DNA of 51,194 nucleotides. Origin: Leptolyngbya sp. BC1307. GTDB lineage: Bacteria > Cyanobacteriota > Cyanobacteriia > Phormidesmidales > Phormidesmidaceae. The notes below the pieces were generated by a model that was not told where the DNA came from, searched no databases, and worked only from the letters and a program-made list of their open reading frames with translations. The stretch covers positions 1 through 51,194 of the forward strand of contig NZ_NRTA01000031.1 in the NCBI RefSeq assembly GCF_002286735.1, in the 5' to 3' direction. This document shows, piece after piece, positions 33,806 to 49,472 of this stretch; position 1 is the stretch's first letter; the number at the start of each line of letters is the position of its first letter. The translations under genes were made by a program, and so were the position numbers.

Positions 33806-35035
33806 TCAAACTCGCGTCGCATTTAGCAAGATCTGCTCGTATCGGCTACCGGCGATCGCCCAAGTAAATTCTTCCTCAATCATCTCCCGCCCGTTTTCCG
33901 CTAGCTTCTGGCGCAGTTCAGCCGAATCAAACAGCCGCCCAATTGCCGCCGCATATTCAGCCGCTGTGTTTGCTCGCAAAGCCCGCAGCGGGATGCCCTT
34001 ACCCTCTATAGTCAGACCTTCTAAACCGCGATCGCTCGCCACCACCGGAATCCCCGCCGCCATCGCTTCCAGGGTTTTATTTTTAATGCCATAGCCCGTT
34101 CGCATCGGAATCACGCAGACGGTCGAATTATGCAGATAGGGCGTCATCTCAGGGACCTTACCTGTCACCTCTACGTGAGGGATTTCCTGCAAAGCCTTTA
34201 CCGCTGGCGTTGGTCTAGCCCCTACTAGCGATAGCGTTGCCTGAGGATAAGCCTGTTGCACCAGCGGAAAGATATCTCTAGCCAAAAAGGTGACTGCATC
34301 TATATTAGGCAGATTATCCATTGCGCCAATAAAAACCAGAGCGTGTCCCCCCGGATCTTGAGAGCGCGGCGTAAACATGTCTAAATCAACGCCGTTAGGA
34401 ATGACAGAAATGCTTTCTTTGCCACTCAAAGCGGTCATTTGCTGTTTGTCTTCAGCGGTAGTAACGACCAGATCGGAAAACTTTTGGCAGTAGCGCTGTT
34501 CATAGCGTTTGAGCAGTGGAAGGTTAAGGCGATCGCGCCAGGGTTTCTCAGCCGTACCGCCCGCCAGCTGATGGGCGCAAGTACCATACACAGAGCTGTG
34601 GATATTCACCACCGACTTAGGGATGTATCGCCCAATATCATCCGGCACATAGACTTCATTGACGCTGTGCTCGCAGGTAATTGCATCAAAGTCACCGCTA
34701 GCAATCTGCCGATCTACCCAGGACTGCATTTCGTCCGACCGGGTGGTGATCACATTCGGCGGCGTACCTCCCAGCGCAAAATTTGCCAGCCGCTCTACCT
34801 TTCCGAAAGCGCCCGTCTGCTCGCTACCAGCCGGGCGAGAGAACACAGCTAAACAATCTACCCAGCCCTCTAAGGCCGCAATCTCATCATCCGTTACATC
34901 TTCTGAGCGATGCGTTGCCAGCGTAATCCGGTGATTTTGCTGCTTGAGGTATTTGAGTAGATTAAACGTTCTCACTGAAGTCCCCCCTCTTGTCGGGGGG
35001 TAAGGAAACGTTGCCGAAAGCATCAAAATATTCAT
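33806..35035 (-). CDS. Glycosyltransferase (GT4/GT-B fold)
   Basis: The 409-residue protein begins MNILMLSATFPYPPTRGGTS, the N-terminal Rossmann half of a GT-B enzyme. The C-terminal half has HALVFIGAMDNLPNIDAVTF, ATLSLVGARPTPAV and the nucleotide-sugar-site stretch VCVIPMRTGYGIKNKTLEAM followed by AAGIPVVAS. It likely adds a sugar to a lipid-linked or polysaccharide acceptor in the cytoplasm. It resembles sugar transferases of exopolysaccharide systems. Start MNILM is one base after the stop codon of the upstream GT2 gene, so the two are one translational unit. Donor and acceptor are unknown. Confidence 0.92.
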   Translation of the reverse strand: MNILMLSATFPYPPTRGGTSVRTFNLLKYLKQQNHRITLATHRSEDVTDDEIAALEGWVDCLAVFSRPAGSEQTGAFGKVERLANFALGGTPPNVITTRSDEMQSWVDRQIASGDFDAITCEHSVNEVYVPDDIGRYIPKSVVNIHSSVYGTCAHQLAGGTAEKPWRDRLNLPLLKRYEQRYCQKFSDLVVTTAEDKQQMTALSGKESISVIPNGVDLDMFTPRSQDPGGHALVFIGAMDNLPNIDAVTFLARDIFPLVQQAYPQATLSLVGARPTPAVKALQEIPHVEVTGKVPEMTPYLHNSTVCVIPMRTGYGIKNKTLEAMAAGIPVVASDRGLEGLTIEGKGIPLRALRANTAAEYAAAIGRLFDSAELRQKLAENGREMIEEEFTWAIAGSRYEQILLNATRV

Positions 35036-35036
35036 T

Positions 35037-36035
35037 TTAGCTGGCAGGTTGTTCAACGGCATGATGCAAAGCCAGTAGATAAGCCTTGTCCCGAGCATTC
35101 TCGGGTAGCCGGGCTTCCTTTTGGCCGCGATCGCGAGCCCGGGCGCAGTAGATATCCAAAGGCGTCGTCAGCATCCCTACAGCCGGTTCGCCTGCGATAG
35201 ACTTCACAGCCGCCTGAGGCAACTCTTTAACCGCCCATCGCAGCAGGCTGCGGTTGCGCTCTTTTTTAGGCAGCGGCCAGGCTAACTTCACCCCGTGCAA
35301 GTCGTGCAGGTATCGGTTCGATTTGCCGTAGCGATACCACTGAGCGTACAAATCCTTCAGCGTTTGCCGGTGGCGATGTTGAACCACCGCATCGGTAGCG
35401 TAATGAATTTTCCAGTGGTCTTCTCGCTGCACTCGCCAGCAGATATCGGCATCGCCGCCCGTCGTCATATAGGGGCGAAACAAACCAACCTTCTCTAGCG
35501 CTTTCAGGCGAATGCCGAGGTTGGCGGTTTGGCCATACGGACAAAACTGATGGGCTAGCGTATCTTTCTGACTCATGGTGCGTTTGCGCTCGGCGTAGCG
35601 CTCTAGCCAGGTAGTCCCTGGAAAGGCTGTGATTTCGCCTGCCACTAACCCAACGCTGTCGTCTTGAAAAGGTCGTATCAGGCCCGTTAACCAGTCGGGC
35701 TGTGGGTAGCAGTCAGCATCGGTAAAGGCTAAAAGTTCGCCAGTCGCTTGCCGAATGCCAATGTTGCGAGCAGCATAGGCACTCTGAATCTCCCGTTCGC
35801 TCAGGGCTTTAAAGGTGAGTCCTTTAGCGGCGAATTGCTCAGCAGCAGCGGCTAGAATCTGGGAGGTGCGATCGCTACTGGCGTTATCTACCAGCAGGTA
35901 CTCCACCTGCCCTGCCGGATAGGTCTGCGCCATCAAACAGTTAAGCAGGCCCGGCAAATCTTGCTCGCCATTGTAAATGGGCACAATGACAGAAACCCGA
36001 GGAAAATCGGAAGTAGGCTCAGAGAGCGCCATCAT
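35037..36035 (-). CDS. Glycosyltransferase family 2
   Basis: The GT-A fold begins at FPRVSVIVPIYNGEQDLPGL. LLVDNASSDRTSQIL, AYAARNIGIRQATGELLAFT and the metal-binding DADC motif follow near residue 110. GGDADICWRVQREDHW is the conserved acceptor-side acid region. The C-terminal 60 residues include VLTTPLDIYCARARDRGQK, with one possible membrane-proximal segment. The start is uncertain: ATG codons at 36062, 36035 and 36032 are in frame; the middle one is used because AGG lies at a usable distance. Length about 332. It precedes the GT4 gene with a one-base gap. Confidence 0.88.
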   Translation of the reverse strand: MMALSEPTSDFPRVSVIVPIYNGEQDLPGLLNCLMAQTYPAGQVEYLLVDNASSDRTSQILAAAAEQFAAKGLTFKALSEREIQSAYAARNIGIRQATGELLAFTDADCYPQPDWLTGLIRPFQDDSVGLVAGEITAFPGTTWLERYAERKRTMSQKDTLAHQFCPYGQTANLGIRLKALEKVGLFRPYMTTGGDADICWRVQREDHWKIHYATDAVVQHRHRQTLKDLYAQWYRYGKSNRYLHDLHGVKLAWPLPKKERNRSLLRWAVKELPQAAVKSIAGEPAVGMLTTPLDIYCARARDRGQKEARLPENARDKAYLLALHHAVEQPAS

Positions 36036-37342: not shown

Positions 37343-38251
37343 ATGCGAAAAATACAGGCTCTCTGCTGCGGACTGCTGGTATTGTCAGGTCTAATCTGGC
37401 TCAGACCTAGAAAACCTGAGAAAACCTTCTCAGCCGCCGCCAAATCGGAGCAAATATCAGAACCGCCAGCAGCTCCTGTCTCGGAGCAAAGCATCACCTA
37501 CCAAACCTACGATTTGGGCTCAGCCACCGTGTATGTGGTGAGTGTGCCTGTTGGAATCCCTATCTCTGTAGCTGTAGCAGACGAACTGACAACGGTCGCA
37601 GCCTTCGCTCGCCGCGAAAATGCCCTCGCCGTCCTTAACGGCGGATTTTTCGATCCTCAGAACGGCAAAACCACTTCTTACCTGACCGCCCAGGGCCAAC
37701 CAACTGGCAACCCTGCGAACAACGAGCGACTGACGGGCAATCCTACACTAGCGCCCTATCTCAATCAGATCTTTAATCGCTCAGAGTTTCGGGCCTACCG
37801 CTGCGAGTCATCCGCTAGCTTGCGCTACGACATTACCCAACATGACGCTCCCTTGCCCGATAGCTGCCAATTAGAAAGTGCTTTGGGCGCAGGCCCCCAG
37901 CTGCTGCCCGAAAATACCGCCGCCACTGAAGCCTTTACCGACTACGACAAGGGCGAACTCATCCGCGATGCAATCGGGAGTGTACAGCCCAATGCCCGGA
38001 GCGCGATCGCCCTGCAGCCAGATGGAACCGTGCGCTTACTCATGGTTGCCCAGCGACCCAATGCCCCCGGCATGACCCTCGCTGATTTGGCTGAATTTGC
38101 CACCTCTCTAGGCGCAACTCAGCTGCTCAATCTGGATGGCGGCAGCTCATCTTCGCTTTACTACAACGGGCAAACCTACTTAGGCCGCCTGGATACCGAC
38201 GGTAATCTGGTCGAACGCCCGGTGAAATCCGTCATCTTAGTTGGGCAGTAA
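37343..38251 (+). CDS. Exported phosphodiester glycosidase-like (NAGPA/DUF2233) protein
   Basis: The 302-residue protein starts with a signal peptide or anchor (KIQALCCGLLVLSGLIWL; a cysteine pair but no clear lipobox). A disordered Ala/Pro/Ser segment follows. The NAGPA domain shows AVLNGGFFDPQNGKTTSYLT near residue 97, ALGAGPQLLPE near 180 and LLNLDGGSSSSLYYNGQTYL near 260, where the DGG-SSS motif is the family hallmark. Family members hydrolyse sugar phosphodiesters, for example uncovering mannose 6-phosphate. Placed 51 bases after a glycosyltransferase gene, it may trim a surface glycan. The substrate is unknown. Confidence 0.88.
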   Translation: MRKIQALCCGLLVLSGLIWLRPRKPEKTFSAAAKSEQISEPPAAPVSEQSITYQTYDLGSATVYVVSVPVGIPISVAVADELTTVAAFARRENALAVLNGGFFDPQNGKTTSYLTAQGQPTGNPANNERLTGNPTLAPYLNQIFNRSEFRAYRCESSASLRYDITQHDAPLPDSCQLESALGAGPQLLPENTAATEAFTDYDKGELIRDAIGSVQPNARSAIALQPDGTVRLLMVAQRPNAPGMTLADLAEFATSLGATQLLNLDGGSSSSLYYNGQTYLGRLDTDGNLVERPVKSVILVGQ

Positions 38252-38306
38252 ACCTTTTTCATAGTGCGATCCAATGGTTTTGGCCCAGATACAGAGGTCG
38301 AAAACG

Positions 38307-39014
38307 CTACTTGCTATAGGTAATCTGAACAACCTTCGCATGACCTGCCACTACCAACGTGCCAACGTAGCCCTCTGGTAAAGCAAGCGTGTGTAAGCAC
38401 CACCCGTCCGAGCAGCTGTGGGGCACATGGAGAAGCCGAGGCGGAGTCAGCTGTACCTCTACCGTCCGCATCGACTGAGTCAGACCTAGTCCGATCGCTT
38501 TAAGATAGGCTTCTTTACAGGTCCAAGTCTGTAGAAAGGCGCGAGGTTGGTCGTCAGCAGACTGGGCCTTTACCTGCTCTTTCTCCTGATCGGATAGGCA
38601 ACGGTCCATCAGGCTTTCTAGCCGCTTGAGTGGCCTGATGCTTTCTATATCTATACCTACTTTGCGCCGGTACCCCAGAGCGCACAGGGCTAGTTCACCC
38701 GAGTGAGTGAGATTAAAGTGAAAATCACCCCCCGGTTGGAGTAGAGAACTCCTCTGAGTATCAGGCAGTGCCTCAATAAATGGCTTGCCATACTCGCTAT
38801 AGCAAAAGCTGATCCGATCCGGCGATTGATGCAGCTGACGGGCCAGTATATGCCGGAGGGCACCTCGCGACACAATAAAACGACGTCTGTCGTCAGCAAA
38901 ACGAAAACGGTTTGCTCTGGACTTTTCATCCTGGGAAAGGCACGTAAGATAGCCCTCCAATATGTCTTGAGGTGCGCTTAGCTGAATTTGCCAAATCTGA
39001 ACAGTATCACTCAT
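38307..39014 (-). CDS. 4'-phosphopantetheinyl transferase (Sfp/HetI type)
   Basis: The enzyme transfers phosphopantetheine from CoA to the serine of carrier proteins. From MSDTVQIW the protein has 235 residues. Motifs in order: SRGALRHILARQL near residue 55, FNLTHSGELALCAL near 105, VGIDIESIRPLKRLESLM with the metal-binding D-x-E near 125, and TWTCKEAYLKAIGLGL near 170. The two-domain length and KEA-YLK segment identify the Sfp/HetI group, which charges ACP, PKS and NRPS carriers. It is divergent from a gene cluster with an acyl carrier protein, which is its likely target, besides the fatty-acid ACP. Confidence 0.94.
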   Translation of the reverse strand: MSDTVQIWQIQLSAPQDILEGYLTCLSQDEKSRANRFRFADDRRRFIVSRGALRHILARQLHQSPDRISFCYSEYGKPFIEALPDTQRSSLLQPGGDFHFNLTHSGELALCALGYRRKVGIDIESIRPLKRLESLMDRCLSDQEKEQVKAQSADDQPRAFLQTWTCKEAYLKAIGLGLTQSMRTVEVQLTPPRLLHVPHSCSDGWCLHTLALPEGYVGTLVVAGHAKVVQITYSK

Positions 39015-39418
39015 ATACTGGCCGAAGTTACAGCCCTCTTGCACGTGGGAAATCTGAGAAAGCTGTGCTTTGCCAGTTTTATTGGCCTGCCAGTAGAGCG
39101 CTGCCTTGATTCATGCCTGCAATGTAAAAGCTGCAAAAGCTTGTTTTTTTTGTAAAGAGGATAGATAGCGGTGTTTGGCCTTAGAGAGGCTATGTCAGTA
39201 TGCCTCTAAGCAGCCGGCATCAGGCTTACATTTTAATATCTTCTGTTTCGGTAGCCATCTACTATCCCAATAAATCAAGGCAAAGCAGCCACCATCCTAA
39301 TTTCAATACAGATAGTTGCTAGCTTATCCGATTCGGAGATGTCTTCCATTTCGTAACGTTACCGCTATAGCGCTTGCGCACAGATCGCTACCCGATTGCT
39401 ACTTCTTTGGCATCAGCA
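39015..39418. other. Divergent regulatory region between the PPTase and FAAL genes
   Basis: The stretch of about 400 bp contains two structures. At about 39128-39150 a short AAGCT/AGCTT hairpin is followed by G and eight T, a terminator-like signal reading toward FAAL. At 39180-39210 CTTAGAG pairs with CTCTAAG around an AGGC/GCCT-containing interior. These could form an attenuator in the FAAL leader, but no start point is known. A TTG codon at 39374 opens the FAAL frame 15 codons earlier than ATG. No small gene was seen. Confidence 0.4.
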
Positions 39419-41287
39419 ATGGTTTATTCTCCACCTAAAAATACTCAGGGCAAAAATACTCAGAGCCTCAGCGATCAGGGCGTTGCTCAATTTTCCACTC
39501 TTGTTGAGCTGCTTCAGCACAGGGCTAAAGAACAGCCCAGTGACCTTGCCTATCAGTTCTTAGTGGATGGCAAAAAAGAAGGGACTGCCTACACCTACGC
39601 CGAATTGGATGAGTGGGCAAGGGCGATCGCCGCACTTCTCCAGCAGCAGCAAGCCAAAGGCGAACGTGCCCTTTTGCTCTATCCTCAGGGCGTAGAAGTC
39701 GTCGCGGCTTTTTGCGGTAGCCTCTATGCCGGCGTGATCGCCATCCCCGTACCGCCACCCGATGCGGGTCGAATGAAGCGCACCCTACCACGCCTGCGCG
39801 AAATTATCAAAGATGCCCAGGCCACCATTGTTCTCAGTAACGCCCGCATCATTGAAATTATTCAAGAGTCCGACATCGATTTCCCCGAGTTTGAAACGAT
39901 GCGCTGGATTGACACCGAAACGGTGAATCTAGACCTAGCCAAACAGTGGCAGGATCCGGGCATAAACAAAGACGCACTGGCCTACTTACAGTACACCTCA
40001 GGCTCTACCTCTACGCCCAAAGGCGTGATGCTCAGCCACTACAATCTGCTGCATCACTCTGCCTACTTACAGCGGGGCTGCGGCTACCGCGCTGACGGCC
40101 CTACCGTCACCTGGATGCCCTACTTTCACGACTACGGTTTGGTAGAAGGGCTGATACAGCCACTTTACAATGGCGCGCCCTGCTACATCATGGCCCCGCT
40201 AGCCTTTGTGAAGCGTCCTCTCCGCTGGCTGCAAGCTATTCAGAAATACGGCGCTACCCACAGTCAGGCTCCTAACTTTGCCTATGACCTGTGCGTCCGT
40301 CGGACCAAGCCCGCCCAGCGCGAAGCTCTAGACCTTAGCGGTTGGCTGAGCGCCGGCAATGCGGCTGAACCGATCAACCCTCGGGTGATGCGGGACTTTT
40401 GCGAGGCGTTTGTAGACTCTGGATTTCGCTGGGAGAGCTTCTCACCTGCCTATGGCCTAGCTGAGGCTACTTTGTTGGTTTCTGCAACGCCTTTAGGCCG
40501 CGAGCCGATTATCTTGTCGCTAGAAGCCAGTGAGCTAGAGCAGGGTAAAGTCGTCGCAGCCGAACCCAATTCTTCCTATGTGCGCGAAGCCGTGAGCTGC
40601 GGGCCTTTGGTCTGCGAGACCGAGGTTGCCATCGTCAATCCTGACGAGCTGACTCGCTGCGCCACTGCTGAGGTCGGTGAAATTTGGGTGAACGACCCCG
40701 GTGTGGCCCACGGTTACTGGCAGCGTCCCGAGGCTACTCGGGAAACCTTCGAAGCTCAAATTGCTGGCGAAGGCGCAACTCGTTATCTGCGGACGGGCGA
40801 CTTAGGCTTCATAAAAGACGGTGAACTCTATATCACTGGCCGTATCAAAGATCTGATTATCATTCGCGGCACCAATCACTACCCCCAAGATATCGAATGG
40901 ACAGTGCAGCAAACCCACCAGGCAATGCGGCCAGACTATGGCGCGTGCTTCTCCATTATTGAAGAGGGAGAAGAGCAGCTCATCGTGGTGCAAGAAATTG
41001 AGCGTCAGCATCAGCAGAATCTAGAAGCAGACGAACTGATTGCCGAAATTCGCCAGGCTATATCTGAGGCTCACGAGCTGCAAGTATATGCAGTGGCCCT
41101 AGTGAAGTCGGGCAATGTGCTTAAGACTTCGAGCGGTAAAATTCAGCGCCGAAAGTGTAAAGCCAGCTTTTTATCTGGGGATCTAGAGGTGCTCGCTGAC
41201 TGGAGCGAAAACCCCAGACTGACTACCAAGGTGCGCAGCCTGCAAAACGAGGTGGAATTCTTAGCTCAGCAGTTGAACCAGAAATAA
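39419..41287 (+). CDS. Fatty acyl-AMP ligase (FAAL)
   Basis: FAALs activate fatty acids as acyl-adenylates and load them onto carrier proteins rather than CoA. From ATG 39419 the protein has about 622 residues. Motifs: LAYLQYTSGSTSTPKGVMLS (P-loop), VTWMPYFHDYGLVEGLIQPL and ATHSQAPNFAYDLC, which closely match FAALs as opposed to acyl-CoA synthetases, YRLRTGDLGF-like TRYLRTGDLGFIKDGELYIT, GRIKDLIIIRGTNHYPQDIE, and the catalytic Lys in SSGKIQRRKCK. No carrier domain is fused; the separate ACP two genes downstream is the likely acceptor. First in a plus-strand run with ACAD, ACP, MBOAT and SGNH genes. The start is uncertain. Confidence 0.93.
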   Translation: MVYSPPKNTQGKNTQSLSDQGVAQFSTLVELLQHRAKEQPSDLAYQFLVDGKKEGTAYTYAELDEWARAIAALLQQQQAKGERALLLYPQGVEVVAAFCGSLYAGVIAIPVPPPDAGRMKRTLPRLREIIKDAQATIVLSNARIIEIIQESDIDFPEFETMRWIDTETVNLDLAKQWQDPGINKDALAYLQYTSGSTSTPKGVMLSHYNLLHHSAYLQRGCGYRADGPTVTWMPYFHDYGLVEGLIQPLYNGAPCYIMAPLAFVKRPLRWLQAIQKYGATHSQAPNFAYDLCVRRTKPAQREALDLSGWLSAGNAAEPINPRVMRDFCEAFVDSGFRWESFSPAYGLAEATLLVSATPLGREPIILSLEASELEQGKVVAAEPNSSYVREAVSCGPLVCETEVAIVNPDELTRCATAEVGEIWVNDPGVAHGYWQRPEATRETFEAQIAGEGATRYLRTGDLGFIKDGELYITGRIKDLIIIRGTNHYPQDIEWTVQQTHQAMRPDYGACFSIIEEGEEQLIVVQEIERQHQQNLEADELIAEIRQAISEAHELQVYAVALVKSGNVLKTSSGKIQRRKCKASFLSGDLEVLADWSENPRLTTKVRSLQNEVEFLAQQLNQK

Positions 41288-41303
41288 CCGAAGGGAAGCA
41301 TTC

Positions 41304-43130
41304 ATGACGCTAACGCAATATCAATTAGCCGAGCAGCTAGAGCAGGCTCTAGGCAACCCTAATCAGCCCGATAGCTTAATGTCTTTTCAGCACACCGCTG
41401 AGCTAGACGAAGCCGAGCAGTTTCCCCACGACGAGATTGCCTGGCTCTATCAGTGGGGCCTGCAGAATTACTACATTCCAACCGAGTGCGGCGGCAAGTT
41501 TACCTCTTTTGAAGAGTTTGTTGCCTTTGTGCGAGTTCTAGCCCGCCGCGATCTCAATATATCCATTGCCTTTACGACTTTATTTTGGTCATTTCTGACC
41601 TGGATGGCAGGCAATGAAGCTCAAAAAGAAAAGCTCTCTCGCCTGATGCGCGAGGACCAGGTAGCCATGTGCCTGTCCTACTCTGAGCGCGGACACGGCA
41701 GTGACCTAGTCGGCGGCAGTGTGATTGCAACCAAGACAGAGGGTGGCTATGTGCTCAACGGTGAGAAATGGCCGATTAACCGGGCAACTATTTCTGGCAT
41801 TACTTTCGTCTTGGCGCGCACTGCAGTAGAGGGCGGTAATCGGGGGCTGTCTCTTTTCATGGTTGATAAGAGCGAGCTTAATCCCAGTCAGTACTACAAC
41901 CTGCCCAAAATAAAAACTCACGGCATCCGCGCTGCTGATATGAGCGGCATCGGCTTTAGCGACTGCTTTATTCCTACGAGCACGCTTATAGGTAGAGAAG
42001 GAGAGGGCTTAGAACTGGCTCTGAAGGGCTTTCAGATCACTCGGGCTCTGTGCGCTGCTTTTTCTCAAGGTGCGGCAGATACCAGCATGCGCACCACCCT
42101 CAATTTTGCAGTGAATCGTCGGCTTTACAACAAGACTGTCATCGACATGCCCCATGCGCGACGTACGCTGACTCACGCTTTCACCGACATGCTGATTTGC
42201 GACTGTGTCAACATTGGTGCGGCCCGAGGGTTTCATGTCGCGCCAGGGCAGTTCAGCGTGTGGTCAGCGGTCGATAAATACTTTGTTCCGGTAACTCTGG
42301 AGCAGGTAATGAAAGATACCTCTGTGGTGCTAGGCTCGCGCTTTTACATGCGCGACGAGCACGACGCCGGCGTGTTTCAAAAGATGCTGAGAGACAGTGC
42401 CATTATCAGCATGTTTGACGGTAGCTCAGTAGTGAATCTACACGCTCTAATTTTGCAGCGACGGCAGCTAGCCAAAGCTCGGGTTCGTCGTAAGCCCGAA
42501 AAGCTTGAGGCATTGAAGGCGCGACTGGCCCAGAGCTTTTCACTTGATCAGCCTGTGCCGACCTTTGATGCGACCAAGCTAGAGCTAATTAGCCGAGGGG
42601 CGGACGATGTTATGCAGGGGCTGGAGAACACCCTGGCACAGCTAGAAGCCCTCAAGGTTAATACCAGTGACCCTACTTTGGATCAGGCTGTACTTTCCCA
42701 GGTGCTGGAATTTGGTCAGGTCATTCTCGAAGAACTCAACGCCCAAGATGAGCTGATTACCCAGTCGGCTTTTGAGCATGGGCACGAGCAGTCGTTTGAG
42801 AGTTTTGACCTGGCCAAGCAGTATTGCCGTCTGCACGCGGCGATCGCCTGCATCCTCATGTGGATGCACAACCGCCAGCGCAACCGCGAGGCCCTTGGTG
42901 ATTTCTTTTCCAGGGGTGAGTGGCTGGTGCTGAGTCTGCACCGCCTGCTCTCGCACTTTCGGATGGCTTTAGAGCGTCCGCCGGAGGCGTATTACGAAAA
43001 CGTCGCCCAAGAACTCTTGCGGCTACACCAAGAGGACAAAATGTTCTCGATTGTACCTTTCCAACTTGCTAAATCATCTACAAAGGAGGACATTTCCCAT
43101 GCAACAGCTCCAGAACTCCAGCTCCACTGA
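41304..43130 (+). CDS. Acyl-CoA dehydrogenase family protein (long form, 608 aa)
   Basis: FAD-dependent enzymes of this family introduce an alpha-beta double bond into acyl thioesters. The N-terminal part has IPTECGGKFTSFEEFVAFVR, then AMCLSYSERGHGSDLVGGSV and GGYVLNGEKWPINRA, the usual flavin and substrate segments. Family RD-x-I--YEG is here RDSAIISMFDGSS with Asp372 where the catalytic Glu normally sits. About 200 further helical residues follow (residues 400-608), longer than short-chain forms. In this context it probably acts on acyl-ACP made by the FAAL. It starts 16 bases after the FAAL stop (GAAGGGAAGC ribosome region) and overlaps the ACP start by 32 bases. Confidence 0.9.
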   Translation: MTLTQYQLAEQLEQALGNPNQPDSLMSFQHTAELDEAEQFPHDEIAWLYQWGLQNYYIPTECGGKFTSFEEFVAFVRVLARRDLNISIAFTTLFWSFLTWMAGNEAQKEKLSRLMREDQVAMCLSYSERGHGSDLVGGSVIATKTEGGYVLNGEKWPINRATISGITFVLARTAVEGGNRGLSLFMVDKSELNPSQYYNLPKIKTHGIRAADMSGIGFSDCFIPTSTLIGREGEGLELALKGFQITRALCAAFSQGAADTSMRTTLNFAVNRRLYNKTVIDMPHARRTLTHAFTDMLICDCVNIGAARGFHVAPGQFSVWSAVDKYFVPVTLEQVMKDTSVVLGSRFYMRDEHDAGVFQKMLRDSAIISMFDGSSVVNLHALILQRRQLAKARVRRKPEKLEALKARLAQSFSLDQPVPTFDATKLELISRGADDVMQGLENTLAQLEALKVNTSDPTLDQAVLSQVLEFGQVILEELNAQDELITQSAFEHGHEQSFESFDLAKQYCRLHAAIACILMWMHNRQRNREALGDFFSRGEWLVLSLHRLLSHFRMALERPPEAYYENVAQELLRLHQEDKMFSIVPFQLAKSSTKEDISHATAPELQLH

Positions 43131-43386
43131 AGCCACTTCTTCGGTCACAGCTATCCAATCCTGGTTGGTTGAGCAGCTCGCCGACGTGCTCTCTATCGAA
43201 CCTAGCACGATTGATGTCAAGCAGCCCCTCACCCGCTACGGCTTGGATTCAATCGACGCCGTCACACTGGTGGGCGATCTCGAAGACTGGCTCGATCTTG
43301 AGCTTCCTTCTACACTGCTGTGGGACTATCCCAGCATCGAAAAAGCCTCAGCATACATGGTAGAAGAGTTCGACGTGTCCCTCTAG
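43099..43386 (+). CDS. Acyl carrier protein
   Basis: The 95-residue protein is a single phosphopantetheine-binding domain. The attachment serine is Ser51 in RYGLDSIDAVTLVGDLEDWL. The stretch LEDWLDLELPSTLLWDYPSI is typical of carrier proteins in FAAL and PKS systems rather than primary fatty acid ACP. A strong AAAGGAGG ribosome site sits 10 bases before ATG 43099, inside the dehydrogenase gene, so 32 bases overlap. An earlier start in frame (43051) would lie deep in the dehydrogenase gene and is rejected. It should receive the acyl group from the FAAL and be charged by the nearby PPTase. Confidence 0.95.
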   Translation: MQQLQNSSSTEATSSVTAIQSWLVEQLADVLSIEPSTIDVKQPLTRYGLDSIDAVTLVGDLEDWLDLELPSTLLWDYPSIEKASAYMVEEFDVSL

Positions 43387-43412
43387 AACAACTCTTTGGC
43401 TAGGGGCGATGA

Positions 43413-43441
43413 GCAGACGCAACATTCATCAAAGCGTCTGC
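43413..43441. other. Stable hairpin between the ACP and MBOAT genes
   Basis: GCAGACGC (43413-43420) and GCGTCTGC (43434-43441) form a perfect 8-bp stem with a 13-base loop, starting 27 bases after the ACP stop. No T-run follows, so it is more likely an mRNA-processing or stability element, or a partial attenuator, than a full terminator. Confidence 0.5.
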
Positions 43442-43544
43442 CAGTTATGGATATGGGGCTTTCTACCGTTTGAGTAGGGAGCCTCAGTGATGAGCAAATT
43501 AGGTCATTTGTAGGGGCTTTGCCCGTAGCGATAGAGCAAAGACA

Positions 43545-45008
43545 TTGAACTTCTCTGAATTTTCATTTTGGTGGGTGCTATTGCTGACGAGCGTGCCGTT
43601 TTTCACGGTGCGCTACTTTGGCAAAGCGTTTGACTGGTGGCATAACCGCTTTGATACCGTTGGGCTTGCGGCCCTTTCGCTGCTGCTATTTCTCAATACC
43701 AGCCGTACCAGTTTTGCAGTGTTTCTGTTTGAGATTCTGTTTAACTACTTTATGGTGAGCTTGATGCTGCGCCGGGAGGGTAAACAGGCCCGGCTGATTG
43801 CGGCTACCGTCATTATTTTTGATGTGGCGGTGCTGGCCTACTTTAAGTACCTCACCTTTTTTATAGAAGATTTCGTTGGGCTAGCGACGCCCCTGCCAGT
43901 CAATTGGCAAGCAGGTTTTCCGCTGCCCATCTTTGAAACTATTCCGCCGGGGGTGTCATTCTATACCTTCCAGATGGTGGCCTTTGTGGTCGATTCTTAC
44001 ACCGCGCGCCGCAAAAAGCCGATTAAGTTGCTGGACTACATCAACTTCGTCTCGTTCTTCCCGCAGATCGTAGCTGGGCCAATTGAGCGCCGCAGCAAGC
44101 TTCTGCCTCAGATTCAAGACTTTAAGTTTCAGTTCAGTGCTGTCAATTTTGATGTGGGGATGCGGTGGCTGTCGCTGGGCATGTTCATGAAGTTTGTGCT
44201 AGCAGATAACATCGCCCCTTATATTACTGATGGCATGTTAGAGACTGCCAACCCTTGGTTGGTATGGTTTTACGCCTTCTTGTTTACTCTGCGCATCTAC
44301 TTTGACTTTGGGGGCTACAGCTTTATGGCGGTAGGGATTGCCCGCATCGTTGGTGTCAAGCTGACGATTAACTTCCTAGCGCCCTATACTTCTCAGAGTA
44401 TCAACGAATTCTGGCGGCGCTGGCATGTGACGCTGAGCACCTGGTTTCGCGACTATGTCTTCATCCCGCTGATGGGAAAACGCAAAAAGTGGGCGGCTTT
44501 TTTCCTGTTTATTACCTTCACGCTGTCAGGGTTTTGGCATGGTGCAGCCTGGAACTTCATGATTTGGGGAGCCTACCACGGCGCGCTGCTGCTGCTACTG
44601 CGCTACGCTGGACGGCCCTTTGCGCGGGCAACTAATAAGTTTGTCCGGCGGCCTCAAGTCGTGTCTTGGGCACTGACCTTTGGGGCCGTTATTTTAGGCT
44701 GTCTCTTTTTCATGGAGACTAATATTGAGCGGCTGATGGCCAAGCTCTTGACCATTGTCACGCCCTGGGCCTACTCACCTGCCAACTTGATTCAGGCGGT
44801 CAATACGTTCAATTCGCCGGAAGGGTTAGTGCTAGGCGTGGCGCTGTTGCTGGCGATCGCCTTCCTAGCCCTTGAGCACATCGCCGTATGGCAAGAGCGG
44901 CCTGAATATGAGCTGCTGACCTCCCCCTGGATGTCTAGAGTGTTGCTGGGCCTAACGATTCTTCTGGCCGCTAATATTCCAGCCGACTTTATCTACTTTG
45001 AATTTTAG
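43545..45008 (+). CDS. MBOAT family membrane O-acyltransferase (AlgI/DltB-like)
   Basis: The 487-residue protein has about ten or more membrane helices. The MBOAT motifs are SFYTFQMVAFVVDSYTARRK near residue 145, PQIVAGPIERRSKLLPQI near 178, FWRRWHVTLSTWFRDYVFIP with His294, and the catalytic histidine His332 in SGFWHGAAWNFMIWGAYHG. This group moves acyl groups across the membrane onto exported polymers: alginate acetylation by AlgI, D-alanylation by DltB. The start is TTG with no ATG before the first helix and only a weak ribosome site. Next to a carrier protein and an SGNH protein, a DltB-like role is inferred. Confidence 0.94.
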   Translation: MNFSEFSFWWVLLLTSVPFFTVRYFGKAFDWWHNRFDTVGLAALSLLLFLNTSRTSFAVFLFEILFNYFMVSLMLRREGKQARLIAATVIIFDVAVLAYFKYLTFFIEDFVGLATPLPVNWQAGFPLPIFETIPPGVSFYTFQMVAFVVDSYTARRKKPIKLLDYINFVSFFPQIVAGPIERRSKLLPQIQDFKFQFSAVNFDVGMRWLSLGMFMKFVLADNIAPYITDGMLETANPWLVWFYAFLFTLRIYFDFGGYSFMAVGIARIVGVKLTINFLAPYTSQSINEFWRRWHVTLSTWFRDYVFIPLMGKRKKWAAFFLFITFTLSGFWHGAAWNFMIWGAYHGALLLLLRYAGRPFARATNKFVRRPQVVSWALTFGAVILGCLFFMETNIERLMAKLLTIVTPWAYSPANLIQAVNTFNSPEGLVLGVALLLAIAFLALEHIAVWQERPEYELLTSPWMSRVLLGLTILLAANIPADFIYFEF

Positions 45009-45074
45009 AAACGTCTCTGCGATCTCTGGGAAGCAGCAGAGGTCAGTCACGTGAGCTGTTTAGAATAGGATCTC

Positions 45075-46019
45075 TTGAACGAAATGACTGTGTCCGCAAA
45101 GCCTCCAAAGTTTTTAAGCTGGTTAGCAGTTGCAGGGTTGGCCTGGGGAGCCGGGTTTGTCTACAACGTATATTTAGGCGGTGAAGCGCATTGGCTGAAA
45201 GGGCTGTACCAGAATAAAGTGGCGATCGCCGCTGAAACTTCTGACCCCAAGCTGATTATTACGGGGGGCTCGGGTGCGCATTACACCGTAGATTCTGCCT
45301 TGCTCTCCCAAGAACTGGGAATGCCCGTGGTCAATCTGGGTCTAGACGGCCCTTTAGGTCTGGATGTGATTTTGGCGAGCGTTTTAGAAGCCGTTCAGCC
45401 AGGCGATGTGGTACTGCTCATTCCTGAATACCTGATTTTGGAAGGAGACGGCTTTGGACCAAAGTCTGGCCTGTTTGGGATCGCGGTTGGTAAGCCGGGA
45501 ATGGGGGGTGTCCCTGCTAAGCAGCTAGCGCTAGATACTTTACAGCTAGGCATTCCCTCTCTGCGATGGACTGTTAAATCGGTCACTAACCTGGCTGAGG
45601 AAGGGCGCTTTACTGGCTATTATGACGGTCCGCTGACAGCGCAGGGAGACCCGACTGAGACCAAGCAGCGCGAAGGGGACTGGTGGCCTCTAAAAATCAA
45701 CAGCGCTGCCTCTCCTCACGCTGTTGAGCGCATTGCCCAGTTCAAAACGGAGGTAGAAGACAGGGGGGGGCAGCTAATTGTGTCGATTCCCTGGGTCTAT
45801 GGCGATGTCAATAGCGAGCAAACCATAGAAAGCGTTAGAGACACCGCTCAAGCGCTAGGCGAGATTGCCCCGGTCCTGGTAGACGAAGAAACTCTAAACA
45901 TTCAGGACAGTCCAACGCTGTTTGCTGACACTCACTACCATTTGAAACCAGAAGGTAGAGAAGTGCGATCGCAGCAGCTAGCTCAACAGCTCAAACCCCT
46001 TCTCTTAGAGATGCAATGA
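45075..46019 (+). CDS. Membrane-anchored SGNH-type (DltD/AlgJ-like) protein
   Basis: The 314-residue protein has one N-terminal membrane helix (FLSWLAVAGLAWGAGFVYNV) and a large domain outside. The nucleophile candidate is Ser66 in IITGGSGAHYTVDSALL, followed by PVVNLGLDGPLGLDVILASV, the usual second block. Asp285 and His287 lie in LFADTHYHLKPEGREV near the end, which gives the D-x-H arrangement of SGNH acyltransferase partners of MBOAT proteins. Start TTG 45075 has AGGA six bases upstream; ATG 45084 is the alternative. Its stop overlaps the next start (ATGA). It likely hands the acyl group from the MBOAT protein to a glycan or polymer. Confidence 0.85.
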   Translation: MNEMTVSAKPPKFLSWLAVAGLAWGAGFVYNVYLGGEAHWLKGLYQNKVAIAAETSDPKLIITGGSGAHYTVDSALLSQELGMPVVNLGLDGPLGLDVILASVLEAVQPGDVVLLIPEYLILEGDGFGPKSGLFGIAVGKPGMGGVPAKQLALDTLQLGIPSLRWTVKSVTNLAEEGRFTGYYDGPLTAQGDPTETKQREGDWWPLKINSAASPHAVERIAQFKTEVEDRGGQLIVSIPWVYGDVNSEQTIESVRDTAQALGEIAPVLVDEETLNIQDSPTLFADTHYHLKPEGREVRSQQLAQQLKPLLLEMQ

Positions 46020-47296
46020 TCCATCAGCAGCCAGCCGGACGCACCTCCAATAGCAACCCACCCACTGGCTCGCAGATCTGCATTGTGGGTGGCGGTTTCG
46101 GGGGGCTTTACACGGCGCTGTACCTGCAGAAATACCGTCATCTGCGCAACAGCCAAATTACGCTGATTGAACCCAAGGGGCGGTTTTTGTTCACGCCGAT
46201 GATGTACGAACTCATCACCGACGAGCTCAAAGAGTGGGAGATAGCACCGACCTACAGCAGCCTGCTCGCGGGGACTAACGTGAGCTGGCTGCAGACCCGC
46301 GCAGAGGCCGTAGACTTGCAGCGTCAGGTGGTAACGGTGACAGGCGGTGACAGTATTGCTTACGACTATTTAGTGCTAGCAACCGGCGCTGACAGCCGAC
46401 CAGTTGATATTCCTGGTGTCGATCAGCACACGCTGACCTTTCGTTCTTTGGATGATGCCTTGAGCTTGAAAGCGCGGCTTTCTCAGCTGCTGCAGGTTCA
46501 AGCGATGGGGCCTCAAGCCAGTGCCGCTCCCGTCTATGTCACTGTGATCGGAGGTGGACCTAGCGGTGTAGAGCTAGCAGGTAAGGTGTCTGACTATCTA
46601 GGTGCCCGAGGTCAGATTACTCTGGTAGACCGGGGAGCAACCATTCTTAAGCCCTTTGAGAAAGGTCTCAGACGGCTCGCGCAGCAGGCATTAGCCCGAC
46701 GAGATATTCGTGTGCTAACTGAGACCTCAGTAGCAGCAGTGAGCGCTGATACAGTGACCATCGAGGCAGGCGGTGAACAGCAGGTGCTGCTAAGTCACCT
46801 CACGCTGTGGGCAGTAGGGACGCAGCCCAATCCCTGGCTAGGCGAGCAAGCTGTCGATCACAATGAACAGGGCCAACGGCTGACTCGGCGATCGCTCCAG
46901 CTGATAGACCATGACAATGTTTTCGTGCTGGGCGATAGCGCTGATGTCCGAGGGTCCAAGCGCAACGCTGCTCCGAATACAGCTCAAGCTGCCTATCAAG
47001 CCGCTAGCCGAGTGGCGGCGAATCTGGCGGCCATGACCAGAGGGCGATCGCCCAAGCCCTTCAACTATCTGCACTTAGGTGACATGGTTACCCTGGGCGT
47101 CGGCGATGCCGGGCTGTGGAGCTTTGGGATTACGCTGGGCGGGCGCATAGCGGCGCTCTGTCGGCGCGGGGTGTACATCTTTCGGATGCCGACTCGGCGT
47201 CACCGGGCTAAAGTAGCCCGCCGCGCCTTGGGTGAACTCGGGCGAGCTGTCTTCTTGCCCTGGCGAAAACGACGGGATCCTGGCTACGAAAGCTAA
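46016..47296 (+). CDS. NDH-2 type NAD(P)H-quinone reductase (NdbB-like)
   Basis: The 426-residue flavoprotein has two dinucleotide-binding motifs: ICIVGGGFGGLYTALYLQKY for FAD and VTVIGGGPSGVELAGKVSDY for NAD(P)H. LATGADSRPVDIPGVDQHTL and VFVLGDSADVRG are standard. The C-terminal part (YLHLGDMVTLGVGDAGLWSF and YIFRMPTRRHRAKVARRAL) resembles the membrane-associating end of cyanobacterial NdbB, which I recall as a demethylnaphthoquinone reductase in phylloquinone synthesis. It overlaps the SGNH gene by four bases, so translation is coupled. The electron acceptor here is unknown; the neighbour HTTM protein suggests a naphthoquinone. Confidence 0.9.
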   Translation: MIHQQPAGRTSNSNPPTGSQICIVGGGFGGLYTALYLQKYRHLRNSQITLIEPKGRFLFTPMMYELITDELKEWEIAPTYSSLLAGTNVSWLQTRAEAVDLQRQVVTVTGGDSIAYDYLVLATGADSRPVDIPGVDQHTLTFRSLDDALSLKARLSQLLQVQAMGPQASAAPVYVTVIGGGPSGVELAGKVSDYLGARGQITLVDRGATILKPFEKGLRRLAQQALARRDIRVLTETSVAAVSADTVTIEAGGEQQVLLSHLTLWAVGTQPNPWLGEQAVDHNEQGQRLTRRSLQLIDHDNVFVLGDSADVRGSKRNAAPNTAQAAYQAASRVAANLAAMTRGRSPKPFNYLHLGDMVTLGVGDAGLWSFGITLGGRIAALCRRGVYIFRMPTRRHRAKVARRALGELGRAVFLPWRKRRDPGYES

Positions 47297-47334
47297 GTCT
47301 TAAATCAAGCAATTCTAAACTCCAAAAAGCAGCT

Positions 47335-49224
47335 ATGACTTCTGTTCAGCCTGAAAAAAAGGGCCGCTGGTGGGCTACATTGCGCGATCTCTACAGTTTA
47401 GATATGCGATCGCTCGCTCTATTGAGAATTGGCCTGGCACTGACGCTACTCGCTGACCTGGCGACGCGCTTCGGCGATCTGACTGCTCACTATAGCGATC
47501 TGGGTGTACTGCCGCGAGCGGTGCTGACAGACGGCATCTTGAAACCTGGCTATTGGTCACTTCACCTGCTGAGCGGGCAGCCGATCTTCCAGGGAGTGCT
47601 CTTTTTACTAGCGGCAGCTAGCGCGGTAGCGATGCTGTTTGGCTATCGCAGTCGGCTAGCCACCGTTGCCTCCTGGGTGCTGCTGATTTCCGTGCATAAC
47701 CGCAATCCGCTGCTGATTTTTGCGGCAGATGATGTGTTGCGAGCGGTGATGTTTTGGGCCATGTTTTTGCCTTTAGGGGCAGCTTACTCAGTTGACCGGG
47801 CCCTGAATACAGCCACCCGGCCGATCCCAGTGCGCATTTTCTCAGGCGCAACGCTAGCGCTGATGGCTCAGCAGTGCTTTATCTATATCTTTTCAGCTGT
47901 CTTTAAGACGACCAACTCTGCTTGGTGGCCAGATGGCACAGCGGTTTACTATTCGCTTAGCTACGATCAGTACGCCACACCGCTGGGACATTTTCTGCTC
48001 AATTTGGGGCCGCTGCTCACTGTCTTTACATTCGTGACGCTGGTGTTGGAGTGTGTAGGACCGCTGCTGATTTGGTCACCGATACGCCATGACTTTTGCC
48101 GAATGGTCGCAGTAGTCCTCTTCGTCGGTCTTCATGCGGGGTTTGGCCTGACGCTAAATCTGGGTATCTTCCCTTTCTTAAGTATCGTTACCTGGCTAGC
48201 TTTTATCCCGACCTCGGTATGGGAGGCTTTGAGCAAGCGGGTCTACGGGCCACCGCGCTCGGGCCTGAGAATTTTTTACGATGCTGACTGCGGCTTTTGC
48301 AAAAAGGTGGTGCATTTGATCCGAATGCTGCTGGTGCTTCCGCACACCCCTTTAGCGACGGCCCAAAGTATTCCAGAGATCAATCAGGCGATGGAGCTGC
48401 AAAACTCCTGGGTGATTGTTGACTGGAAGGGAAGGCACCACTACAAGTTTGAAGGCATTGCCTATGTCGTCAGTTTGTCGCCAGTCTTTCGCTTTTTCGC
48501 CCCGCTGCTGCGCTGGTCGCCAGTGATGGCCGTGGGCACTCGTTTCTATGAGTGGATAGCGACGAATCGGCGAGTGGCAGGGCGCTTTACTCGACCGTTT
48601 AAATTTAAGCCGCTGCCTGTTAAAAATCCTAGCTGGCTGAGTGCGATTGCCCTCTTGCTGCTAACTCTGACTTTCATGTGGAATCTCCGCAGTATCGTCA
48701 CCCATCGGTCTTTTGTGGAAAGCTCGCAGCCAGCGGTCAGCATCGTTCGCCGGGTAACTAATAGCCGTACGGCGCAGCGTATAGACTGGCTAAGCCGCGT
48801 GACCCGACTTGATCAGTCATGGAGTATTTTTGCGCCTGGGCCGCCGCGAGACGACGGCTGGCATGTCGTAGCGGGTACGCCGCTGCCTGCGCCTAGTCAA
48901 ACGGACGAGGCGATCGCCACTACGGAGATCGATGTGCTGCGGCCCGAGCGACAGATCGCGTTTGATAAGCCATCCTTGGGCGATCGCACTCGCTTTTACA
49001 AAAACATGCAGTGGCGAACCTTCTACATCAATCTCAATCGTCAGATTGGCCAAAAGGTCTTTCCTAGCTATGGAAACTACCTCTGTCAGCAGAGCGCCCG
49101 TCAAAGACACCCGCTCAAAGACCTGCAGGTTTACTTTATCGACGAGCGTACCGCCCCCCCCGGAGAGCCTCAGCCCGTAGAGCAAAAACTGATCTGGGAG
49201 CAGTCCTGTCAGGCACAGCAATAA
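47335..49224 (+). CDS. HTTM (vitamin K-dependent carboxylase-like) protein fused to a DCC thiol-redox domain
   Basis: The 629-residue protein starts with a horizontally transferred transmembrane (HTTM) domain, residues about 20-300, opening with MRSLALLRIGLALTLLADLA and containing HNRNPLLIFAADDVLRAVMF. A DCC1-type thioredoxin-like domain follows at about 312-430, with FYDADCGFCKKVVHLIRMLL and the redox pair Cys319 and Cys322. A further membrane helix (about 440-460) leads to a C-terminal soluble part with WSIFAPGPPRDDGWHV, as in other long HTTM proteins. HTTM proteins resemble the quinol-using gamma-carboxylase, but activity in bacteria is mostly unproved. It is the last gene of the cluster, 38 bases after the quinone reductase. 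Confidence 0.9.
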   Translation: MTSVQPEKKGRWWATLRDLYSLDMRSLALLRIGLALTLLADLATRFGDLTAHYSDLGVLPRAVLTDGILKPGYWSLHLLSGQPIFQGVLFLLAAASAVAMLFGYRSRLATVASWVLLISVHNRNPLLIFAADDVLRAVMFWAMFLPLGAAYSVDRALNTATRPIPVRIFSGATLALMAQQCFIYIFSAVFKTTNSAWWPDGTAVYYSLSYDQYATPLGHFLLNLGPLLTVFTFVTLVLECVGPLLIWSPIRHDFCRMVAVVLFVGLHAGFGLTLNLGIFPFLSIVTWLAFIPTSVWEALSKRVYGPPRSGLRIFYDADCGFCKKVVHLIRMLLVLPHTPLATAQSIPEINQAMELQNSWVIVDWKGRHHYKFEGIAYVVSLSPVFRFFAPLLRWSPVMAVGTRFYEWIATNRRVAGRFTRPFKFKPLPVKNPSWLSAIALLLLTLTFMWNLRSIVTHRSFVESSQPAVSIVRRVTNSRTAQRIDWLSRVTRLDQSWSIFAPGPPRDDGWHVVAGTPLPAPSQTDEAIATTEIDVLRPERQIAFDKPSLGDRTRFYKNMQWRTFYINLNRQIGQKVFPSYGNYLCQQSARQRHPLKDLQVYFIDERTAPPGEPQPVEQKLIWEQSCQAQQ

Positions 49225-49472
49225 ATTGAGCTGTTCATACCAATCCCTTCTAGATCTTGAGACCGGCTTCTGTGCCTGGCGAATGACAAACTCGCCTACG
49301 CAATAACGCCAAAGACGCTCAACTAGATAGTCGCCATCCTCTGAAAGCTGCAAAATAGATATGGGGCATCATTTATTTTGATCATTATTGCGCTGAGCGC
49401 TTTAAGATGGGCGATCGTCCCCGTAATATAGAGTGACTCATCCCACCGTTGGGTTGCCGCTTTGGTTAAGCA
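49225..49472. other. Gap between HTTM gene and pxcA
   Basis: This 248-bp gap contains the pxcA promoter. On the minus strand 49240-49353 encodes a plausible peptide (EDGDYLVERLWRYCVGEFVI followed by RQAQKP) which faintly recalls a segment of IS4-type transposases, but the frame runs straight into the antisense of the HTTM gene. A GCGATCG run lies near 49411. No RNA gene or clear terminator was seen. Confidence 0.35.

Follow-up and report, generated by a model that had tools for sequence, protein, structure and literature searches.

Two designs of transfer system that pair a membrane-bound O-acyltransferase (MBOAT) with an SGNH-fold protein are set out in the available part of a published account (PMC12148441): a carrier-fed form with a separate shuttle peptide, as in the teichoic acid D-alanylation system Dlt (DltABCD and DltX), and an acyl-CoA-fed form with a fused shuttle, as in PatA and AlgI. 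DltX is the separate peptide of the Dlt pathway; the other MBOAT-SGNH systems described there are fed by acyl-CoA without a carrier protein, and PatA acylates the Tyr of its own C-terminal FXYXXF peptide (PMC12148441). Here we describe a locus of Leptolyngbya sp. BC1307 that shares features with both. It lies in the window, by which we mean the whole 51,194-nucleotide stretch of contig NZ_NRTA01000031.1 that was analyzed and to which coordinates refer, and comprises seven genes within 39374-49224, all on the plus strand: a fatty acyl-AMP ligase (FAAL), an acyl-CoA-dehydrogenase-like protein (ACAD), an acyl carrier protein (ACP), an MBOAT (MBOAT1), an anchored SGNH-fold protein (here SGNH), an NDH-2-like oxidoreductase (NDH2), and a membrane protein with an inserted thiol domain (HTTM-DCC, or HTTM). 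As judged from the sequences, the unit appears to join a Dlt-like carrier supply to a PatA-like export relay, with neither definition fitting fully. We think it reasonably probable that these genes form an acyl-activation and export module, in which a fatty acyl group would pass from ACP to Tyr484 of MBOAT1, then to Ser66 of SGNH, and finally to an external acceptor. What sequence analysis shows is which genes make up the set, that they are inherited together, which motifs they carry, and how the proteins are modeled to fold; every catalytic step is our inference.

The extent of the unit was drawn from its neighborhoods in other genomes. An alignment search of genome contigs with ACAD matched 154 stretches, 120 of which encode a relative, and the best 80 loci were kept. 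Unsupervised clustering of reading frames of at least 90 residues, in 41 loci chosen from the 80 (several of which end at a contig edge), found ACAD in 41 (by selection), MBOAT in 39, ACP in 38, FAAL in 32, SGNH in 31, HTTM in 29, and NDH2 in 27. The next families were a second SGNH-like protein in 8 loci and a phosphopantetheinyl transferase (PPTase) in 6, followed by families in 5 and 4. Because seven families recur in 27 to 41 loci and the next in 8, we defined the unit as FAAL-ACAD-ACP-MBOAT-SGNH-NDH2-HTTM; the MBOAT copy had at least 55% identity in all 39 of its loci. Adjacency was counted in the 69 of 80 loci in which ACAD had at least 55% identity, with denominators formed by loci with enough flank and with both the identity and the flank thresholds set by us. 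FAAL preceded ACAD in 47/61 and ACP followed it in 64/65, while the remaining members lay beside ACAD in 55/64 (MBOAT), 36/57 (SGNH), 34/58 (NDH2), and 33/54 (HTTM). Linked members were found in Microcystis, metagenome-assembled genomes labeled Crocosphaera, Okeania, Anabaena, and Leptolyngbya, among others.

Co-inheritance was followed in 386 genomes of the window's phylum, searched with MBOAT1, ACAD, SGNH, and HTTM. Full-length MBOAT1 orthologs occurred in 18 of them, at 62 to 69% identity besides the window's own, and a broken copy in a nineteenth (G385); beyond these, all of the matches listed had at most 43% identity and were mostly of partial length, and some MBOAT was present at E 1e-30 in 170/386 genomes. 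The same 18 genomes encoded orthologs of ACAD (60 to 64% identity; the frame in G131 has 587 residues), of HTTM (48 to 63%, with second copies at 40% in G105 and G143), and of SGNH (47 to 54%, with a second copy in G237). FAAL, searched in 20 genomes, had orthologs at 60 to 66% in the 18 that carry the module. Outside these, ACAD was matched in one more genome (G229, 47%), HTTM more weakly in 7 further genomes at E 1e-60 (at most 45% identity), and SGNH in no further genome of the 386 at E 1e-20. The 18 carriers represent 12 genera and 6 families, with seven genomes from a single genus; when the genomes were pooled by genus, MBOAT1 and ACAD were associated with a Fisher p of ~1e-16, a guide only, as genera are not independent. 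The first-pass annotation of this DNA had named a lack of co-occurrence in related genomes as what would count against it, and the set was found to be shared by these 18/386 genomes.

This sharing extends to genomes in which the genes have come apart. All seven stand together in the window's order in G191, G328, G060, G306, G074, and G231. NDH2-HTTM is located apart from the rest in G131; FAAL-ACAD-ACP-MBOAT remain together in G111, with SGNH and HTTM elsewhere; and in G105 and G143 ACAD-ACP-MBOAT-NDH2 occupy one place, SGNH-HTTM a second, and FAAL a third. The Microcystis-like G312 and G095 have kept every member across four places (FAAL, ACAD-ACP, MBOAT-SGNH-NDH2, and HTTM). SGNH or NDH2 adjoins MBOAT in some genomes and HTTM in others. 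In G385, FAAL, ACAD, MBOAT, SGNH, NDH2, and HTTM are each split over several frames, both MBOAT and HTTM as well as SGNH being broken, and ACP was not found in that genome. Since the genes scatter yet co-occur and decay together, they most probably serve one function. By eye, a transposase-like frame lies between the MBOAT gene pieces of G385 (contig C1, ~442500-452600; loci L052 and L094).

These results bear on the locus as first annotated, which ran from 38307 to 46019 and held PPTase, FAAL, ACAD, ACP, MBOAT, and SGNH. All six genes were found, in the order and on the strands claimed, and conserved synteny, together with co-occurrence even where the genes are unlinked, bears out the proposal that the last five form one unit. 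The boundaries have moved, as the recurring unit begins at FAAL and adds NDH2 and HTTM-DCC (Table 1). The divergent PPTase was ruled out as a member by its recurrence in 5/40 loci with room and in the 6 of 41 counted above; it could activate ACP as a neighbor outside the conserved unit. Within the unit, ACP probably starts at the ATG at 43099, inside the 3' end of ACAD, with its phosphopantetheine Ser codon at 43249, and the start of NDH2 overlaps the stop of SGNH. Directly downstream lies a PcxA proton-extrusion homolog; it has the same position in L095, L096, and L097, so it is probably a lineage neighbor. In some loci a further MBOAT (MBOAT2, ending FLYFQF; 13/80 loci) and the second SGNH-like protein (SGNH2; 8/41) follow HTTM; no relation of the SGNH2 beside MBOAT2 to SGNH was detectable, and SGNH2 of L105 gave a weak DUF1574 match below the cut-off.

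Table 1. Features of the locus and of comparison loci. Coordinates without a prefix are positions in the window; those with a prefix are positions in the locus named.
Feature	Coordinates	Strand	Details
FAAL, fatty acyl-AMP ligase	39374..41287	+	637 aa from TTG; possible ATG at 39419
ACAD, acyl-CoA-dehydrogenase-like	41304..43130	+	Pfam Acyl-CoA_dh_M, _1, and _N (all three domains); ~200-residue C-terminal extension
ACP, stand-alone acyl carrier protein	43051..43386	+	PF00550, 59.4 bits; GLDS motif
MBOAT1, membrane-bound O-acyltransferase	43545..45008	+	PF03062, 96 bits
SGNH, N-terminally anchored SGNH-fold protein	45075..46019	+	AlphaFold2 model; possible ATG at 45084
NDH2, NDH-2-like FAD/NAD(P) pyridine nucleotide oxidoreductase	46016..47296	+	PF07992, 156.9 bits
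HTTM-DCC, membrane protein of GGCX fold with a thioredoxin-like DCC domain as insert	47335..49224	+	PF05090, 28.4 bits; PF04134, 35.3 bits
PPTase, HetI-like, divergent	38307..39044	-	PF01648; HetI model 192.2 bits, below cut-off 370
Third glycosyltransferase, upstream	33806-35098
PcxA proton-extrusion homolog	49473-50771
MBOAT2 and SGNH2, examples	L105:13000-15729, L131:11690-14589, L134:19026-21328, L161:14666-17392, L091:10631-13260
FAAL-ACAD-ACP and one-module nonribosomal peptide synthetase with thioesterase	L162:12216-16801, L167:12133-16813		By eye similar: L165:11772-16504, L173:11787-16394
Metabacillus plasmid pB218 cluster	L179:1865-6193		MBOAT ending FIYGGF

The locus resembles dlt in that an adenylating enzyme, a stand-alone carrier, an MBOAT, and an SGNH-fold protein are clustered, and to that extent its earlier description as Dlt-like stands. 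It differs in having a fatty acid ligase in place of DltA, a shuttle peptide that is part of the MBOAT where dlt has DltX, an SGNH protein without detectable similarity to the one DltD compared, and ACAD, NDH2, and HTTM-DCC in addition. With DltA and DltX absent at the locus, DltD undetectable by sequence, and an MBOAT that is not DltB, a dlt operon as such was ruled out. MBOAT1 ends in FIYFEF, whose Tyr is Tyr484; the FXYXXF motif was present in 12/12 MBOAT1 compared and in 8/8 reference MBOATs from other bacteria and absent from 4/4 annotated DltB, while His294, His332, and Tyr484 were invariant in 13/13 orthologs. The DltB model TIGR04091 scored 189.6 bits on MBOAT1 against a cut-off of 375, the profile match to a solved DltB had an E of 1.4e-29, and among the best 60 of 136 tblastn records plasmid MBOATs reached 216 bits and a named DltB 120. 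In the MBOAT tree, three groups stood apart: MBOAT1 (94/92), DltB (100/100), and 26 other MBOATs (93/71), eight of which are the references. Row L187_bg of the tree comes from a Subdoligranulum plasmid, not from a cyanobacterium. Branches are long and the root arbitrary, so the tree separates the three groups without ranking DltB and the other MBOATs by their nearness to MBOAT1. The sub-cut-off TIGR04091 score, the FIYFEF terminus, and the separate tree group rule out MBOAT1 as a DltB. Among the reading frames of 38000-50000 there was no DltX-like peptide, the MBOAT being the only one to end in FXYXXF, bar an 11-residue chance frame.

By these features MBOAT1 looks like a fused-shuttle design with a carrier supply beside it. 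It is because FAAL-ACAD-ACP adjoin an MBOAT with FIYFEF, which the four DltB lack, that we read the locus as a Dlt-like supply with a PatA-like relay. To judge from PatA and from the conserved motif, MBOAT1 would accept the acyl group from ACP on the cytoplasmic side and place it on Tyr484 of its own FIYFEF on the far side. Likeness to the O-acetylation systems PatAB, AlgI-AlgJ-AlgX, and WssHI, as far as the sources available describe them, consists of an MBOAT of ~485 residues with a C-terminal FXYXXF and a catalytic His, together with an SGNH partner; the window differs in having a carrier supply alongside, and a fatty acyl rather than an acetyl group is expected. The pair could also be ordinary PatA/AlgI-type O-acetylation with acetyl-CoA, merely lying beside an unrelated FAAL-ACAD-ACP lipid supply. 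The PatA-type C-terminus would suit this, as would the use of acyl-CoA by such systems (PMC12148441, available part) and the separation of MBOAT-SGNH from ACAD-ACP in Microcystis-like genomes. Nevertheless, the unlinked genes still share the same 18/386 genomes, MBOAT1 is one group apart from the 26 other MBOATs, and the recurrence of ACP and FAAL as partners of the pair speaks against a carrier-free acyl-CoA pathway; we regard this explanation as very unlikely indeed. A cluster on Metabacillus plasmid pB218 contains an ACP, an AMP-binding enzyme, an MBOAT with the FXYXXF motif, and an unnamed protein, and is a further candidate for a carrier-fed fused shuttle. It resembles the window in its carrier, ligase, and MBOAT (hhalign E 2.1e-47 to MBOAT1) and differs in that iron-transport genes adjoin and no ACAD, NDH2, or HTTM is annotated nearby. 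The carrier-plus-fused-shuttle feature is, by itself, less novel for it.

FAAL, ACAD, and ACP, ahead of MBOAT1, look like a portable source of fatty acyl-ACP. The top-scoring model on FAAL was a nonribosomal peptide synthetase (NRPS)/polyketide synthase (PKS) model (536.9 bits), and the fatty-acid--AMP ligase models PRK05850 and FadD32 gave 441.6 and 432.9 bits, against 104.1 for DltA (cut-off 476); every score falls below its curated cut-off, and hence the name FAAL follows from model rank. ACP had three weak NCBIfam matches, which were PKS-type and none of them DltC. From its family, FAAL would adenylate a free fatty acid and load it onto ACP, where ACAD may oxidize or otherwise modify the chain. 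Asp372 of ACAD was invariant in 12/12 family members and 5/5 noncyanobacterial relatives, at a position where two ACADs of the PDB align Glu, the usual catalytic base.

Outside the cyanobacteria, relatives of ACAD with 47 to 51% identity occur in Gammaproteobacteria and Bacteroidota in the same FAAL-ACAD-ACP order. In L162, L165, L167, and L173 the trio is followed by a protein of ~1,360 residues, which in the two loci scanned with Pfam (L162 and L167) is a C-A-T-TE NRPS; these loci probably represent an N-acyl amino acid pathway. A small polyketide-cyclase-like protein is also there (scanned in L167 only). In the rotihibin cluster, too, a FAAL, two ACADs, and an ACP serve an NRPS, according to the available part of PMC8552735. 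That the trio precedes an NRPS in the two loci scanned, and that such genes likewise serve one in the rotihibin cluster, is why we call it portable. Starters of lipopeptide clusters of the rotihibin and ramoplanin type share the consecutive arrangement FAAL-ACAD-ACP; there ACP is followed by an NRPS, whereas in the window it is followed by MBOAT and SGNH. Within the phylum, G229 (L092, 7192-14110) has a divergent trio beside an enzyme with a PLP aminotransferase fold (PF00155) and, by eye, an SDR-like protein, which suggests a different consumer of acyl-ACP in one cyanobacterium.

SGNH matched no model in Pfam or NCBIfam; its sequence search of the PDB returned a single chance row (E 3.2), and no similarity to one DltD was detected (hhalign probability 0.1%). 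Its AlphaFold2 model (mean pLDDT 92.3, pTM 0.89) shows an SGNH core preceded by a helix at the N terminus. The best VIA matches were platelet-activating factor (PAF) acetylhydrolase (Z 13.5) and TesA (Z up to 13.1); neither DltD nor PatB was among the VIA matches listed, an absence that carries no weight. Foldseek found DltD at E 1.1e-3 (query TM 0.39-0.43) and PatB at E 5.9e-3, with query TM of 0.33-0.43 overall. In a 31-row alignment, Ser66 and D285-T-H287-Y-H289 were invariant (31/31), and the protein thereby has the Ser, His, and Asp of an SGNH partner in PatA/AlgI-type pairs. AlgJ has the DxH motif in a circularly permuted arrangement (PMC4148444, available part); in SGNH the Ser comes first and DxH after it. 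The anchored SGNH would take the acyl group on Ser66 and hand it to a putative extracytoplasmic acceptor, most likely a glycan or glycolipid of the envelope or the extracellular space.

Were SGNH instead a hydrolase, the machine would export fatty acyl groups and set them free outside the cell as fatty acids, possibly 2-unsaturated ones, to act as signals or allelochemicals. Esterases and thioesterases are indeed its best folds (PAF acetylhydrolase and TesA, Z 13-13.5), and ACAD could make an enoyl chain. The fold itself does not discriminate, since SGNH transferases and esterases share it; an MBOAT shuttle with an SGNH partner is a transferase design in PatAB (PMC12148441, available part), and loading by ATP just to hydrolyze would be costly. 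Release of free fatty acids is, in our estimate, very unlikely.

The last two genes are redox proteins. The model of HTTM (pLDDT 84.3) had as its 16 best structural matches vitamin K gamma-glutamyl carboxylase (GGCX), at Z 15.7-23.4 (the best over 387 residues), followed by a next best of 7.5, and the best Foldseek match to GGCX had an E of 5.9e-7. By sequence, neither phmmer nor a 28-row HTTM profile found GGCX in the PDB; structure comparison alone showed the likeness. In the fold of the model HTTM is thus like GGCX, and it differs in its inserted DCC thiol domain, in which the CGFC motif (C319-GF-C322) is invariant in 28/28, and in having, by spacing, mostly Thr at the position of the catalytic Lys. 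According to the available part of PMC12589487, K218 of GGCX serves as the base in the deprotonation of vitamin K hydroquinone. Lys191 of HTTM is invariant in 28/28; spacing from an Ala and a Trp of the same helix aligns it to K217 and places residue 192, a Thr in 20/28, at K218. Since that residue is mostly Thr, a carboxylase role for HTTM-DCC is doubtful. As a guess, HTTM-DCC may bind a quinone that NDH2 reduces. The two proteins would probably contribute redox chemistry linked to a quinone or a thiol, either in tailoring the acyl group or in the acceptor, and this is the weakest part of the proposal. In its fullest form, a carrier-fed Tyr relay would export a tailored fatty acyl group, and a quinol- and thiol-dependent protein of GGCX fold, together with its quinone reductase, would redox-modify the chain or its acceptor on the far side; we offer this version as an improbable speculation.

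For the acceptor, the first-pass annotation had pointed upstream. The three glycosyltransferases and the exported glycosidase-like protein, which has an NAGPA domain, were confirmed there, with two of the three glycosyltransferases on the minus strand. They are rarely kept as neighbors: glycosyltransferase GT2b and the NAGPA-domain protein recurred in 1/39 loci with room each and GT2a in 0/39 (its copy in L096 is present and truncated by the contig end, hence outside the count), and none of the 80 loci had a match to the third glycosyltransferase. Not being conserved neighbors, these genes are no evidence for a glycan acceptor, and the conserved context does not support one. Cyanobacterial extracellular polymeric substances are described as occurring with minor amounts of fatty acids and as bearing ester-linked acetyl groups, with hydrophobicity helping adhesion (PMC4500136, available part), which makes a glycan of the matrix or envelope a plausible acceptor.

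A different product would be a small molecule, either an acylated lipid (such as an acylated glycolipid or a quinone-derived lipid) or a secondary metabolite, made and exported by the module in place of a modified polymer, with MBOAT-SGNH performing the last acylation and NDH2 and HTTM-DCC building or tailoring the core. FAAL-ACAD-ACP is a natural-product starter elsewhere, in NRPS loci and rotihibin (PMC8552735, available part); the patchy distribution over 18/386 genomes is like that of secondary metabolism; two redox proteins recur with the module; and conserved polysaccharide genes are missing. On the other hand, none of the enzymes that could build a core, such as an NRPS, a PKS, or an AOS, is recurrent among the 41 loci, and MBOAT-SGNH pairs with FXYXXF are known from the acylation of polymers (PMC12148441, available part). 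We consider a small-lipid product improbable.

Several observations weigh against the acyl-export module that we favor. The two redox proteins are left unaccounted for by a plain Dlt analogy, and the phylogenetic profile behind the co-inheritance covered MBOAT1, ACAD, SGNH, HTTM, and, in 20 genomes, FAAL. No conserved polysaccharide gene recurs with the unit in the unsupervised count of 41 loci. The case for use of ACP by MBOAT1 comes solely from linkage, since MBOATs of PatA type with FXYXXF use acyl-CoA without a carrier (PMC12148441, available part). In fold, SGNH is nearest to esterases and thioesterases, with DltD and PatB further off. Plain alpha-beta dehydrogenation by ACAD is uncertain because Asp372 replaces the usual Glu. 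The ACAD of G229 has neighbors from outside the set, which shows that its family extends beyond the module, and at the locus of Crocosphaera watsonii WH 8501 (L135) ACAD alone was found.

We did not find this gene set described among the listed titles and abstract openings of the open-access literature, which was the scope of the search, subscription journals lying outside it; no paper of the open-access collection joined "fatty acyl-AMP ligase" with "MBOAT," nor FAAL and MBOAT with cyanobacteria, while two join cyanobacteria with MBOAT and SGNH. The module, conserved across scattered cyanobacteria, combines carrier supply with a fused shuttle that would most likely carry a fatty acid, and its MBOAT-SGNH acyl transfer is partly like that of Dlt and partly like that of PatAB. 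It ties a GGCX-fold protein to a defined gene set. Should the redox-coupled relay prove true, cyanobacteria would have a class of envelope lipidation that is new, and the vitamin K carboxylase fold would have a part in the lipid chemistry of prokaryotes. The module offers genes for studying how cyanobacteria might make their surface or matrix hydrophobic by attaching such groups.

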